Below, in pieces: positions 1,568 through 20,771 of a stretch of 37,807 nucleotides of DNA. Positions within the stretch are counted from its first letter, which is position 1; each line of letters begins with the position of its first letter. The notes under the pieces are model-generated. The model had not been told where the DNA came from. It saw only the letters and a list, made by a program, of their open reading frames with translations, and did no database searches. The position numbers were made by a program, and so were the translations under genes. Origin of the DNA: Sulfurovum sp. 16-42-52 (lineage in GTDB: Bacteria > Campylobacterota > Campylobacteria > Campylobacterales > Sulfurovaceae); NCBI GenBank assembly GCA_002281755.1, contig NCHB01000016.1, forward strand, positions 1 through 37,807, in the 5' to 3' direction.

Positions 1568-1744
1568 TCGATACGCATTGTCAATTTTATAGGACTCTCA
1601 ATCACGACATTTTATATACTTAAATCGGGTTGTCATTTGAAACACTACGTATTCTATAGATTAACCCATTTGTTAAACATCAAGATTTTCATATTTACTA
1701 CACATTTTTATATTTATAAAAGAATTTTATATTACAATATAAAC

Positions 1745-3577
1745 ATGGAACAGTTACGCATACTCATCGTAGATGACGACAGAACCACTACATCTATACT
1801 CAATCATATGCTAAATCCCTATGCCGATTTTATTATTACTGCAACTGACGGCATCGATGGACTTGCCCGTTTCCAAGAACACTCTCCTGATATTATTCTC
1901 TCGGATATCAATATGCCACGCATGAATGGTTTAGAGATGGTTGAAAAGATACGTCAAATAGATGAAAATGTAAAAATAGCCATCTTTACAGACTTTGAAA
2001 ATCGAGATATATTACTCAAAGCCATCGAACTGGGTGTCAATCAATTTCTCTCCAAACCTTTTGATTCTAAAAGTTTTTCAAAAACCATACAACAACTCTA
2101 TAACGATGTCATGGAAAAAAGACGAACTAAACGCGAAATACAAAGACAACAAAATATTCTGCATGCGATCAACAAAATGTCCCATAATTTTTTGCAACAA
2201 AGCGACTGGACAAAAGCCCTGTATCAAGAAATGCAAAACCTTAAACAGGCTTCTATGATGTCATCTATCTTTATTTATCAAAACGAACAAGATGATGATC
2301 CGCTCAGAGCCCATCAATTTTTATACATCAATGATAACCCCAAAGCAAAAAGCAAAAAGCATATTCATTATCGTAAAAATTATTTTATGCGATGGAAAAA
2401 CCAGCTAGAAAAAAACAAGCCTATTAACGGCAGCATAGAAGACTATGATCACTCAAAAAAGAAACTTTTAGATCTGTTTAAAATCAATTCTCTTCTTATC
2501 CTGCCCATTTTTGTACAATATAAATGGTGGGGATTTTTAGGTATAGGAGACGAGCGTAAACAGATACTCAATCCGACCAATGTTGAAATGCTCGGTACAG
2601 CAGCATCTATTATTGGTGCAGCGATCAATAACAGAAACAACCTCAAATCCCTTGAAATGTCGTCTGCAGTTTCACAACACACGATGGATGGTGTCATCAT
2701 TACAGACCATCACAATCAAATCATCCATGTCAATGATGCATTTACGAGCATTACAGGCTACGCGTCTTCTTTTGTCATCGGTAAAGACCCTAAAATCCTC
2801 AAATCAGGGCAACACGATAAACACTTTTATCAAAAAATATGGAATCAATTATCCCTCAACGGCTATTGGCAGGGAGAGATAACAAACCGTAAAAAAAACG
2901 GAGAGATTTATATAGAATGGCTCAGTATCAATGCCATCAAAAATGCACAAGGTCAAACGGAAAATTACATCGGTATCTTTTCAGATGTAACACACCAACG
3001 CAAGCATGCACACGATCATGCCTATTTGGCGACACATGACCCTCTAACGGGTCTTTCCAATAGACTATTATTTGATGACAGACTCGAACATGCGATGAAT
3101 CATGCTGAAAGGTTTGGCAAATGTATCTCTCTTATCTTTTGTGATCTGGATAATTTCAAACCGATTAACGACACGTATGGTCATGCCGTAGGGGATGAAA
3201 TCTTAAAAACAGTGGCACGTTTTCTGCAAGATACCTTACGTAAAGAAGATACTATTTGTCGTTTCGGCGGAGATGAATTTGTCATTTTAGTGGAAGAGTT
3301 AGAAAGTTTTGAATACCTTGAGACTATTTTACAAAGAATTAATTCACTAAGTAAAACCCCTTATGTTGTAGACGGTAACACCTTTTCCATTGACATGAGT
3401 ATTGGTGCATCAATTTATCCAGATGATGGCAATACTGCGCAAGAGCTGATAAAATCTGCTGACACCGCGATGTATAGAGCCAAAAATAAAGGCAAAAGCT
3501 GCATACAGTATTTTAAATCAAACCACCATGAATACTGTTTACAACAAAAAGACACATCACTGCACTATAGTATTTAG
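1745..3577 (+). CDS. Response regulator / PAS / GGDEF diguanylate cyclase
   Basis: A 610-aa soluble signalling protein predicted to make cyclic di-GMP in response to phosphorylation. Domains in order: a receiver (residues 4-120) with acidic triad D10-D12, phospho-acceptor D54, T82 and K104; a GAF-like segment (about 155-295); a PAS domain (about 300-425); and a GGDEF domain (about 435-595). The catalytic motif is GGDEF at 508-512, and an intact RxxD inhibitory site (R499-D502) lies five residues before it, so product inhibition is expected. There is no EAL domain. The start is taken at MEQLRILIVDDD; the upstream in-frame extension is AT-rich and atypical. No clear Shine-Dalgarno is seen. The 3' end overlaps the convergent ribF by 21 bp. 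No cognate kinase is adjacent. Confidence 0.9.
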   Translation: MEQLRILIVDDDRTTTSILNHMLNPYADFIITATDGIDGLARFQEHSPDIILSDINMPRMNGLEMVEKIRQIDENVKIAIFTDFENRDILLKAIELGVNQFLSKPFDSKSFSKTIQQLYNDVMEKRRTKREIQRQQNILHAINKMSHNFLQQSDWTKALYQEMQNLKQASMMSSIFIYQNEQDDDPLRAHQFLYINDNPKAKSKKHIHYRKNYFMRWKNQLEKNKPINGSIEDYDHSKKKLLDLFKINSLLILPIFVQYKWWGFLGIGDERKQILNPTNVEMLGTAASIIGAAINNRNNLKSLEMSSAVSQHTMDGVIITDHHNQIIHVNDAFTSITGYASSFVIGKDPKILKSGQHDKHFYQKIWNQLSLNGYWQGEITNRKKNGEIYIEWLSINAIKNAQGQTENYIGIFSDVTHQRKHAHDHAYLATHDPLTGLSNRLLFDDRLEHAMNHAERFGKCISLIFCDLDNFKPINDTYGHAVGDEILKTVARFLQDTLRKEDTICRFGGDEFVILVEELESFEYLETILQRINSLSKTPYVVDGNTFSIDMSIGASIYPDDGNTAQELIKSADTAMYRAKNKGKSCIQYFKSNHHEYCLQQKDTSLHYSI

Positions 3578-16976: not shown

Positions 16977-17627
16977 ATGATGAAAAACTTTTTATATACC
17001 ATGATGGCACTGTTGTATACGCTTTTGCTTTTTAGCGGATGCAGTGAATCCCAAAAGCCAGTGCCAAAACCCTACAGCTACCCCAATTATGATATCATCA
17101 AGCCTGACACCATCTGTAAACCCAACCGAAAAAACATTCAGGAACTTCTTGATTCTTATCTTGGCAAACCCTATGTGTGGGCAGAGGAAGGACCTGATGC
17201 CTTTGATTGTTCCGGACTGACTTACAACATTTACGGTTCTATGGGTATGGACATTCCGCGTGTAGCAAGAGAGCAAGCCAAAATGGGGAAAAAAGTTCCT
17301 TTTGAGCAACTGCATTACGGCGATTTGATCTTTTTTGGCTCAACAAACAAAAGAAGCACTCGCATCACCCACGTAGGTATCTATCTGGGTGGAGGATGGT
17401 TTGCGCATGCCAGCAGTAAGGACAGAAAAGTCACCATAAGCCATTTTGAAAAAGAACCTGTGTATGCAGAGCGTATGAAAGTCTGCAGACGGTATATGAG
17501 TAGAGATCAACGTGCCAAGTATATGAATTGTGACGTGCCTCTTAGAAAGATGAAAACAACAAGCACTGCCCATACAACACCGTGGAAAGCAGGTATGCGA
17601 CTACCCAAAAAAGCGGTACCACACTAG
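16977..17627 (+). CDS. NlpC/P60 lipoprotein peptidoglycan hydrolase
   Basis: A 216-aa lipoprotein with a lipobox ending at C22 (LLLFSGC). The NlpC/P60 domain has catalytic Cys78 (FDCSGL), His132 (ITHVGIYLG) and a third polar residue in WFAHAS. Such enzymes cut between D-Glu and diaminopimelate in stem peptides. It is followed 21 bp later by a paralogue with the same layout (KPYVWAEEGP and PYVWAEEGP; IPRVAREQA in both), an evident tandem duplication. Confidence 0.9.
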   Translation: MMKNFLYTMMALLYTLLLFSGCSESQKPVPKPYSYPNYDIIKPDTICKPNRKNIQELLDSYLGKPYVWAEEGPDAFDCSGLTYNIYGSMGMDIPRVAREQAKMGKKVPFEQLHYGDLIFFGSTNKRSTRITHVGIYLGGGWFAHASSKDRKVTISHFEKEPVYAERMKVCRRYMSRDQRAKYMNCDVPLRKMKTTSTAHTTPWKAGMRLPKKAVPH

Positions 17628-17648: not shown

Positions 17649-18560
17649 ATGATACACAAAAGTATATCCCAAAGAGAAAGTATGCCTCACCTCAACACTA
17701 TGTATGCCCTATTGGCTCTGTTACTGATGTTTATGCTCGGTGCCTGTGGACAAAAACCGCACCATCACCCCAGAAAACCCAATTATGCCATCGTAAAACC
17801 CAAGGTCAAATACACGCCAAGCAAAAAAAATCTGCATAAAATGGTCAAAGATCTTCAAGGAAGCCCGTATGTATGGGCGGAAGAAGGACCGAACAACTTT
17901 GACTGTTCAGGTTACACGTACTACCTCTACGGCTCCATGGGCATAGAGATACCACGCGTTGCAAGAGAACAGGCACGATGCGGGAAAGCCATCAGCGTCA
18001 ATGAATTGGTCTATGGTGACCTCATCTTTTTTGACACTGACACAAGACCCAAAGGAAACATCACGCATGTTGGCGTCTATATGGGCAATGGCTGGTTTAC
18101 GCATGCCAGCACCAAAGATTATGAGGTCATTTACTCAAATCTAAACACAACTGCCTATTACAAACAAAGATTGCGTGTCTGCAGAAGAGTCCTGCCAAGT
18201 AGAGGAAAAGGAGGTAGCAAAGCGATCAAACCATGGAAGACACAGCAAAATGTACCTGCAACTCTGCCGCCTATCGCTCCGATAGCAAGCTCTATATCAC
18301 CTCAGAGACCTATCATACCAAGCCGTTCAGGCAATTATTTTGTGCAGGTCGGTTCATTTTCCGGGGAACCCAAAAAAGCTTTGCTTCTCAAGATTACACG
18401 GGCAGGCTATTATTACAAAATTATACGATTTCCTCAGGGTGGCAGACAAATCTCCAAATTGCTTATCGGTCCCTATAAGCAAAAAGAACAGGCTCTGCAG
18501 GTATTGCCTTCGGTTAAAGAGAACATCCAACAAGATGCATTTATCGCAGAAATCCGCTAA
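17649..18560 (+). CDS. NlpC/P60 lipoprotein with C-terminal SPOR domain
   Basis: A 303-aa paralogue of the preceding gene. The lipobox is LGAC (C33), catalytic Cys86 is in FDCSGY and His140 in ITHVGVYMG. After a Pro-rich linker (about 200-228) comes a SPOR domain (229-303, starting NYFVQVGSFSG) that binds denuded glycan at division sites, pointing to a septal hydrolase. ATG 17649 and in-frame ATG 17682 both have AAGAG-type sites; the latter gives a more usual 22-residue signal. A palindromic terminator follows. Confidence 0.9.
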   Translation: MIHKSISQRESMPHLNTMYALLALLLMFMLGACGQKPHHHPRKPNYAIVKPKVKYTPSKKNLHKMVKDLQGSPYVWAEEGPNNFDCSGYTYYLYGSMGIEIPRVAREQARCGKAISVNELVYGDLIFFDTDTRPKGNITHVGVYMGNGWFTHASTKDYEVIYSNLNTTAYYKQRLRVCRRVLPSRGKGGSKAIKPWKTQQNVPATLPPIAPIASSISPQRPIIPSRSGNYFVQVGSFSGEPKKALLLKITRAGYYYKIIRFPQGGRQISKLLIGPYKQKEQALQVLPSVKENIQQDAFIAEIR

Positions 18561-18599: not shown

Positions 18600-20771
18600 T
18601 CAAGCAGCGCTAAGATATTTTTGTATAGATTTATTGAGTGTTTGAATTTCAAAAACATATTTTTCTTTGTAGTTTACCAATAATTCATACTTTTTGTAAA
18701 GAATCTGCTGTAAAATTTCGCTAATAAGCACGTGCATATCTTTTGCACCTATCGTAGCAGTCAGACCACGCATATCTACGCACAGCATTCTTACCTGCTC
18801 GTATCGGTGTTCACGCACCAATTTTTCAAAAATGGCATCACTCTGTCCATACGCTTCCATGAACTCTTTAAGCACCTCCATATAAAGCGCCTCACTGTTG
18901 TTGGAATGTTTAATACCGTCTTCAATATTGATACCTGTATAGCTAATCTTTTCTGTGGGCTGGGCTTCTTTTTCTTGTACTTTCACAACAGGCGTATCTA
19001 AAAGGTAGGTAGATAGCGCCGTGTACAGTTTGCCAACATTCAGTGGCTTTGCCAAGAATGCATTGATACCGCTATTGAACATTTTTTGTATTTCACTGTC
19101 CAGAACCAAGGCGGTAAAGGCAACAATAGGAAGAGCGTCAAACTTACTGTCAAGACGAATCATCTGCGTAGCTGTATATCCATCCATGATAGGCATGTTG
19201 ATGTCCATCAGTACCAGATCAAAGACGACTTTACCGCTTTTAACAATATTGACAGCTTCTTGTCCATTGCTGGCGATGCTAATATTGACGCCTGAAAGAT
19301 GAAAAAGGTTGATAAGCACTTTTTGATTAATAATATTGTCTTCGACAATCAAAATATGTTTCCCAGCAAAATCTTTGAATGAGTTTTGCGTGACACCTTT
19401 CGTCTCTACGATATGTGTTTTATGGGTCTGAACACGTTTAGCTACCTCTTTTTTCTCTTCAGGCACATATACAGAACTCTTAATATCGTACATATTGACA
19501 ATCATTTCAAACACACGCTCTTGGTTAAGCGGTTTAAAGAGATACACGTCAATCACTTCATTGACAAAGCTCTTTTTGGATGACTGAAGCAAAGAATTGA
19601 GTGCGATTACCTTGAGATCTTTGCCAAGTTTTATTTTGCTAAAGTATTCAACCAATCTAGGAGTAAAAAGACTCTCGTTCAAAACTACAATATCATAAGG
19701 TGTCAAATTGGGAATATTTTTACCAAACTCTTCTTTTGAGAGTACTTTGACTTCATGTCTAAAATAGGCGAACATTTTTTTAATCGCCAAAGCTGAATTG
19801 TAATTGTTGTCAACAATAAGCACTTTTTTCTCAACCAGTATCTTATCAGGCAATCGATACATTCTTAAATTGGCTTTTTCGACCACATCAAATGGCAAAG
19901 AGAGTGTATAGGTGCTTCCTCTGCCGACTGTACTCTGCACAGAAAGCTCTCCACTCATCATACCCAGCAATTCATTGGCGACAAAAAGACCCAATCCTAC
20001 ATACACACCTGATTTTTCATCATAGTAGGGAATAAACAGATTATTTAAAGCTTCAGCATCAAGACCTGCACTCATATCAACAAACTGAAACTGCAGTTCA
20101 CCACCCGCTTCAAAAGTATCAAACATCGATATCTCAAGCTTCACCTCATCCAAGTTTGGCTGGTTCATAATATGACCCAAAATACTGTTCAAGATTTGTC
20201 CTAGATGAAGTGAATCTCCGATGAGACGTCGTGGTATATTTTTATCAATATCAAAAATGAGTTCAACATGACTTCCTGAAAACTCTGAGCAGATAGAACC
20301 CGATAGTTCATTGAGCACGTTATTGATATTGAACTCTTCATTGATAATCTCAATTTTTCTTGATTTCAGTCTCAAAAAATCAATCAGATCGTTCGTAACA
20401 TCAAGCAGTCTATGTTCAACATTGACTAAGATTTCTCCGCCATATTTGAGTGATGATGTCACATTATTTGGGTTATTTTGGACTTTTTCTATGGCAAGTT
20501 TTGCCATATTGTGGATATTTTCACTCATGTTTGTGAGTAAAATATTTTGATTTTTTTCCATCTGAAGCTGCTTGTCTAGCATGGTTTGATGCATGAGCTG
20601 CATCTTATGGGTCTGCTGCGAAGAGATAAATAAGATAGCCACACCAACTGCACCCAATGCAAACAGTGCAACCCATATCCAAAATGTTTCTACACTGGCT
20701 CCATCACCTGCCTGCGCAAACGTCATCATACTTAAACCTGATGTGACTATACCGCCCTTATTCATGTTCAT
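18600..20771 (-). CDS. Degenerate hybrid histidine-kinase-like signalling protein
   Basis: A 723-aa protein with one membrane helix (about 28-50), a kinase-like core (about 70-295), two receivers (316-425 and 471-585) and an HPt-like end (about 610-700). Key residues are missing. The H-box reads NMSENIHNM, with Glu84 where His is expected. The N-box reads ILNSILGH instead of NAIK, and G1 is altered (DMSAGLD), while G2 (GLGL, 259-262) persists. Receiver 1 has Asn365 instead of the phospho-Asp (VVLNESLF). The HPt motif is CVDMRG, with Val665 in the His place. Only receiver 2 is complete (D478, D523, T553, K575). It probably acts as a non-catalytic scaffold or a receiver phosphorylated by another kinase. 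It is monocistronic. Confidence 0.85.
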   Translation of the reverse strand: MNMNKGGIVTSGLSMMTFAQAGDGASVETFWIWVALFALGAVGVAILFISSQQTHKMQLMHQTMLDKQLQMEKNQNILLTNMSENIHNMAKLAIEKVQNNPNNVTSSLKYGGEILVNVEHRLLDVTNDLIDFLRLKSRKIEIINEEFNINNVLNELSGSICSEFSGSHVELIFDIDKNIPRRLIGDSLHLGQILNSILGHIMNQPNLDEVKLEISMFDTFEAGGELQFQFVDMSAGLDAEALNNLFIPYYDEKSGVYVGLGLFVANELLGMMSGELSVQSTVGRGSTYTLSLPFDVVEKANLRMYRLPDKILVEKKVLIVDNNYNSALAIKKMFAYFRHEVKVLSKEEFGKNIPNLTPYDIVVLNESLFTPRLVEYFSKIKLGKDLKVIALNSLLQSSKKSFVNEVIDVYLFKPLNQERVFEMIVNMYDIKSSVYVPEEKKEVAKRVQTHKTHIVETKGVTQNSFKDFAGKHILIVEDNIINQKVLINLFHLSGVNISIASNGQEAVNIVKSGKVVFDLVLMDINMPIMDGYTATQMIRLDSKFDALPIVAFTALVLDSEIQKMFNSGINAFLAKPLNVGKLYTALSTYLLDTPVVKVQEKEAQPTEKISYTGINIEDGIKHSNNSEALYMEVLKEFMEAYGQSDAIFEKLVREHRYEQVRMLCVDMRGLTATIGAKDMHVLISEILQQILYKKYELLVNYKEKYVFEIQTLNKSIQKYLSAA

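Follow-up and report, generated by a model that had tools for sequence, protein, structure and literature searches.

A kinase-dead hybrid histidine kinase of Sulfurovum with an intact receiver and a histidine-less HPt domain

Here, we describe a 723-residue protein encoded in a 37,807-nt stretch of DNA from Sulfurovum sp. 16-42-52 (hereafter, the window), which has the layout of a hybrid histidine kinase, lacks the phospho-accepting histidines of both its DHp and HPt domains and retains a complete set of active-site residues in its second receiver. As judged from the sequences, it is a pseudo-hybrid kinase, the kinase module of which was later lost in relatives that keep the transmembrane (TM) helix, the second receiver (REC2) and the pseudo-HPt domain. 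We would give about an even chance to the explanation that it is membrane-tethered and kinase-dead, repurposed rather than decaying, with REC2 charged in trans and docking with the pseudo-HPt helix. A preliminary description of this DNA had taken the gene to encode a maintained scaffold or sensor, of which only the last receiver could be phosphorylated, by an unlinked kinase; the intact REC2, the low dN/dS and the lack of an alternative conserved histidine all speak for a maintained protein whose last receiver alone can accept phosphate, which a separate protein would have to supply.

Architecture, predicted fold and phospho-site residues

The open reading frame begins with ATG, contains no internal stop and is complete, as had been proposed. 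It encodes, in this order, a signal-peptide-like N-terminus, a single TM helix, a coiled coil, DHp, CA, a first receiver (REC1), REC2 and HPt:

18600..20771, minus strand: gene of the kinase-dead hybrid histidine kinase, 723 aa, probably monocistronic (ORF, orthologue and neighbourhood data)
20622..20693, minus strand: the one TM helix, residues 27-50 (N-terminal sequence and alignment; the model has a helix at 27-98)
20358..20561, minus strand: pseudo-DHp, residues 71-138, H-box SENIH as against SHE[IL]R (alignment, structure match)
20520..20522, minus strand: Glu84 codon at the phospho-His position (homologue alignment)
19878..20354, minus strand: pseudo-CA of HATPase_c fold, residues 140-298, His200 for the N-box Asn, G1 Asp kept (Pfam, alignment, structure match)
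19488..19829, minus strand: REC1, a pseudo-receiver (residues 315-428) with Asn365 in place of the acceptor Asp (alignment, model)
19002..19364, minus strand: REC2, residues 470-590, an intact receiver that has E477/D478, D523, T553, F572 and K575 (Pfam, alignment, structure match)
18606..18953, minus strand: pseudo-HPt domain of HPt fold, residues 607-722 (domain folded alone, structure match)
18750..18803, minus strand: former phospho-His helix of HPt, residues 657-674, Val665 for His and Asp666 adjacent (alignment, conservation)

One HATPase_c domain (46.5 bits) and two Response_reg stretches are the only Pfam matches above cut-off, and the HisKA and Hpt models fall below detection on the 723-aa protein; proteins of this kind can escape these two models. 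The full-length structure, predicted from an alignment of 53 sequences (mean pLDDT 76), has ShkA as its top structural match (Z 21.2 over 396 residues). Its DHp-CA part (residues 65-297) superposes on the cores of HK853, DivL and RetS with Z about 20, and its REC2 matches phosphorelay receivers such as the Sln1 receiver (42% identity). Predicted alone, the C-terminal 117 residues reach a pLDDT of 96 and match the solved HPt domain of a Shewanella hybrid kinase (3myf; Z 18.3, rmsd 1.6, 114 residues) and that of BarA (Z 15.1); in this model, the C-terminal domain is an HPt fold devoid of its histidine. Structure prediction thus supports the earlier suggestion that the folds are preserved. A proposed role as a sensor finds no such support, because the predicted periplasmic part comprises only the signal-peptide-like N-terminus and a short stretch ahead of the TM helix, and neither the sequence nor the alignment of N-termini reveals a periplasmic sensor domain in this branch of the family.

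All residues named in the preliminary description (E84, N365 and V665, together with the intact D478, D523, T553 and K575 of REC2) were found in the sequence, as were H200 at the N-box Asn position and E477 of REC2, and we followed them through an alignment of 59 homologues with identity down to about 31%. The phospho-His position of DHp (84) is occupied by Glu in 54 homologues, Gln in two, Asn and Lys in one each and a gap in one, and never by His. The corresponding position of HPt (665) is likewise never His (Leu 26, Val 20, Ile 8, Met 2, Phe 2 and Thr 1), and its neighbours on the helix are strongly retained, with position 666 being Asp in 58 sequences and Glu in one, Lys or Arg at position 668 in 54/59 and G669 in 58/59. 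The active-site positions of REC2 are close to invariant (D478, D523 and K575 in 59/59, E477 in 58/59, and Thr in 54 or Ser in five at position 553).

In the CA domain, the N-box is altered as had been stated, His200 replacing the Asn that serves Mg-ATP, which persists in only three homologues (Tyr 37, His 12, Phe 6), but the G1 box (D232-M-S234-A-G236) is only mildly changed: its second Gly is kept, and the adenine-contact Asp232 is present in 45/59. The G2 and G3 glycines are present in the branch to which the 723-aa protein belongs, and the Sulfurimonas branch has lost the G1 Asp. REC1 does carry Asn365, but this point too is weaker than had been stated, since D321 and K413 are retained and the acceptor position varies among homologues (Asp 21, Asn 14, His 10, Ser 5, Lys 4, Glu 3 and others). 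The loss of the acceptor residue is therefore fixed in DHp and HPt, where His never occurs, but not in REC1. We also searched for conserved phospho-sites elsewhere in the protein, but in none of the alignment columns do all of the 59 homologues, or even 90% of them, have His. H87, H61, H339, H189, H450, H655 and H680 were each considered as a phospho-His and rejected, being substituted in many homologues; H87, which lies beside the H-box, is Tyr, Gln, Phe, Arg, Leu or Ser in others.

Selection and the history of the losses

Close pairs give dN/dS values of about 0.03-0.15 for every folded domain, and somewhat higher ones for the N-terminus and linker, which argues against decay. We identified orthologues at E below 1e-180 in 38 of 61 genomes of the genus, and the listed orthologous frames have no internal stop; together with the dN/dS values, they led us to reject frame decay or a sequencing error. 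Conservation along the protein peaks in the former phospho-His helix of HPt (mean 3.19 bits), followed by REC2 (3.04), HPt helix 1 (3.02), DHp helix 2 (2.69), REC1 (2.39), CA (2.37) and the H-box helix (2.28). Since the former phospho-His helix ranks first although its chemistry is gone, we infer from the sequences that it probably serves as a binding surface. REC2 also keeps the F/Y residue that couples receiver phosphorylation to the output face (PMC9981736).

On a tree built from the DHp-helix-2, CA, REC1 and REC2 columns, one step suffices to replace the H-box His by Glu and one to remove the His of HPt, both mapping to ancestors, and the REC1 Asp changes at least 13 times. A pseudo-receiver between CA and REC is a frequent feature of GacS/BarA and RcsC and is also present in ShkA (PMC7010744); the degeneracy of REC1 is common in this class of kinases, labile here and no special loss. 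With two ancestral His losses and an ordinary degenerate REC1, the earlier notion of four independent losses in one protein proves too strong.

The order of events is indicated by two Sulfurimonas relatives (loci L084 and L087), which are sister to all dead forms. Both still have SHELRTP, an N-box Asn and G1, and their HPt has Met-Asp replacing His; being intact kinases without an HPt His, they imply that HPt became inert before the kinase died. An apparent SPOR-like, periplasmic N-terminus of these two proteins (L084:3107-3400, L087:3083-3400) and of longer paralogues was noticed by eye and set aside, as it has no Pfam support. A short distance upstream of the dead kinase of the Sulfurimonas type, we also observed a response-regulator-like protein of 295-299 aa (L070:1308-2192, L080:1037-1933; IENEIYLAQSI...), which is atypical, appears degenerate in its acceptor region and, by eye, resembles orphan atypical regulators of Campylobacterota.

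The 723-aa protein belongs to a radiation within Campylobacterota, of which it represents a single branch. The same genome encodes a second dead relative of 616 aa without DHp or TM (L109:6896-8746, minus strand), located near guaA and a Na+/H+-antiporter-like gene, which is also the neighbourhood of the intact L084 and L087 kinases. Other Sulfurovum genomes encode TM forms of 660-680 aa resembling it (L127-L132, L135), as well as further long relatives of 830 aa (L137) and 697 aa (L136). Still shorter proteins of 300-400 aa consist of TM, linker, REC and pseudo-HPt with no kinase module (e.g. L113-L117, L119-L121, L123 and L124). REC-pseudoHPt proteins (L113-L121, L123, L124 and L126), mostly with an N-terminal TM, were observed in Sulfurovum as well as in a different family of the same order.

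In a tree of REC2 and HPt, the deeper branches of which are only moderately supported, the short TM-REC-pseudoHPt proteins are nested within the dead kinases and occupy two separated places, one holding L123 and L124 and the other a Sulfurovum group. This placement suggests, as far as sequences can tell, that the dead kinase was lost on at least two occasions. Two intact hybrids of the same genome that lack HPt (L110 and L111) also fall among the short and dead forms, on long branches. In the underlying 61-row set, the acidic pair, Asp, Thr/Ser and Lys of REC2 are intact in 61/61 rows, including proteins free of any kinase remnant, and outside the canonical outgroup no row with an HPt-type helix carries the acceptor His. 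The family thereby forms a graded natural series, from an intact kinase without HPt His through a dead kinase and a DHp-less kinase to a bare TM-REC-pseudoHPt protein, and, because these versions exist in sequenced genomes, the roles of pseudo-kinases and pseudo-HPt domains can be tested by comparing them.

Possible modes of action

In the explanation we favour, no phosphoryl group would enter from ATP at DHp and none would leave through HPt. With entry via DHp closed, REC2 would have to be charged from outside; either an HPt-bearing protein or a different kinase would presumably phosphorylate it in trans at the inner membrane. Its phosphorylation state would then alter docking on the inert helix of its own pseudo-HPt domain or, alternatively, charged REC2 would release this helix for a partner or itself dock on a helix-binding partner; the change in docking would switch a membrane scaffold. 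The pseudo-DHp, CA and REC1 part would contribute to dimerization or partner binding only. Two counterpoints deserve mention: the conservation of D666 and the former phospho-His helix could reflect an interaction that does not involve REC2, and the CA domain may bind a nucleotide, because the G1 Asp and the G2 and G3 glycines remain in this branch. Extended to the whole family, the proposal is more tentative, and we regard it as possible but somewhat doubtful that Campylobacterota hybrid kinases became membrane-tethered receiver switches, in which a His-less HPt reads the phosphorylated receiver and the kinase was first killed and then, in several lineages, discarded; a former phosphorelay would thereby have become a module of receiver plus reader.

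Putative donors of the phosphoryl group come from an inventory of kinases in this genome that rests on profile searches. They include a 201-aa protein with one TM helix, a Pro/Lys/Glu-rich linker and an HPt domain with intact His (HSIKG; L139:1407-2012), an HPt protein (L109:16681-18048) that adjoins an intact hybrid kinase (L110:557-3793), and a second intact hybrid kinase (L111:1357-4116). The first of these, a membrane-tethered HPt without a kinase, adjoins recN-like and tatD-like genes. It has matches in 31 of 32 good genomes of the genus, and co-occurrence was rejected as a diagnostic of partnership, the protein being nearly universal in the genus and present in many genomes without the dead-kinase gene.

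An unlikely alternative, yet one to be taken seriously, is a modulator of the RetS or DivL type, in which the pseudo-DHp would heterodimerize with, or dock on, an intact hybrid kinase and alter its activity, with REC2 acting mainly as its phosphate sink or sensor. DHp helix 2 is indeed well conserved, the superposition of the predicted DHp-CA on RetS and DivL fits as a similarity of fold only, and the genome offers two intact hybrid kinases as targets. There are also precedents, as DivL is devoid of kinase or phosphatase activity and senses DivK~P (PMC4211667), and RetS inhibits GacS through heterodimerization and by drawing phosphate (PMC12189002). Against this stand the several relatives that lost DHp or the whole kinase module and kept REC2 and pseudo-HPt, so that DHp is not the core of the family function, although it may be so in the branch of the 723-aa protein.

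That REC2 and pseudo-HPt merely drain a phosphorelay, as a phosphate sink with no output of its own, appears improbable: a hybrid-type receiver with intact Asp, Thr/Ser and Lys and the putative HPt donors would suit this role, which leaves the top conservation of the former phospho-His helix and the membrane tether unexplained. We consider it quite improbable that the protein is a pseudokinase sensing a nucleotide or metabolite, with a ligand bound by CA or REC1 (as c-di-GMP is by REC1 of ShkA) and tuned by REC2. The retained G1 Asp and G2/G3 glycines and the closeness of the full-length architecture to ShkA accord with it, but the REC1-REC2 linker has no DDR motif, the Sulfurimonas branch has lost the G1 Asp, and the minimal relatives dispense with both kinase and REC1. 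Finally, an ordinary degenerate gene heading for loss would fit the several lost motifs and the whole domains missing from some relatives, but is barely credible in view of the low dN/dS in every domain, the wide occurrence of orthologues with uninterrupted frames, the fixed synteny and a helix more conserved than the active receiver.

Related systems and genomic neighbourhood

The closest known layouts are those of BarA/GacS-type tripartite kinases, which share the order DHp-CA-pseudoREC-REC-HPt and the closest HPt fold, BarA also being the nearest NCBIfam model (residues 121-690). The 723-aa protein scores only 210 bits against its cut-off of 890, and, apart from the intact receiver, it lacks what marks an active BarA-type kinase, namely the DHp and HPt phospho-His and the N-box Asn, as well as HAMP and a periplasmic sensor. 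It shares with ShkA of Caulobacter the arrangement DHp-CA-pseudoREC1-REC2, with a pseudo-receiver between CA and REC2 (N365, at a position variable in the family). ShkA, however, has kinase activity, a c-di-GMP site and a DDR linker, whereas here the kinase is dead, a pseudo-HPt is added and the linker (residues 430-469), read directly, contains no DDR motif. RetS offers the DHp-CA fold of a hybrid-kinase modulator; it differs in its 7TM sensor and tandem receivers and is not known to contain an HPt. RcsD is membrane-bound, with degenerate kinase-like and receiver-like parts, an active HPt His and no known active receiver. The 723-aa protein, with V665 in place of that His, would be its mirror image, combining an apparently active receiver with an inert HPt. 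Plant pseudo-HPt proteins of the AHP6 type, which are free inhibitor proteins, have an HPt fold without His, whereas the pseudo-HPt described here follows an intact receiver within one membrane-tethered protein. Like DivL and other pseudo-histidine kinases, which are maintained for signalling (PMC4211667), the protein has a histidine kinase fold without phospho-His that is maintained by selection; DivL differs in having PAS sensors and neither receiver nor HPt, as opposed to an intact receiver and an inert HPt following the dead kinase.

Published rates of missing phospho-sites are low (HisKA, 0.9%; Hpt, 0.9%; receiver Asp, 2.0%; PMC12632262), and serve as a guide only, as they cannot be treated as independent here and leave out degenerate domains which, like those of this protein, escape the models. 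Given these rates, the loss of both His sites, fixed beside an invariant receiver across the genus and beyond, is far from typical. We searched the literature for reports of this family in Sulfurovum and found none.

The gene is convergent with an NlpC/P60-SPOR gene and divergent from ruvX, and is thus probably transcribed alone. The surrounding order (tat, queA, NlpC/P60, NlpC/P60-SPOR, the dead-kinase gene, ruvX, nagZ, tlpA, dprA) recurs in whole or in part at 34 of the 38 loci with at least 45% identity, and differs outside the main Sulfurovum clade. No kinase, HPt or regulator is linked to the gene in the comparison of these 38 neighbourhoods, and we rejected the neighbours as a source of partners, as tat, queA, NlpC/P60, ruvX, nagZ, tlpA and dprA look like housekeeping genes. 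The conserved neighbours include tandem NlpC/P60 lipoprotein-like endopeptidases on the plus strand (window positions 16977-17627 and 17649-18560), lying tail to tail with the dead kinase, the second of which carries a C-terminal SPOR domain (Pfam, 34.7 bits). A further receiver-bearing ORF of 646 aa is located at 1637-3577 on the plus strand of the window, with its receiver at 1760-2089 (94 bits).
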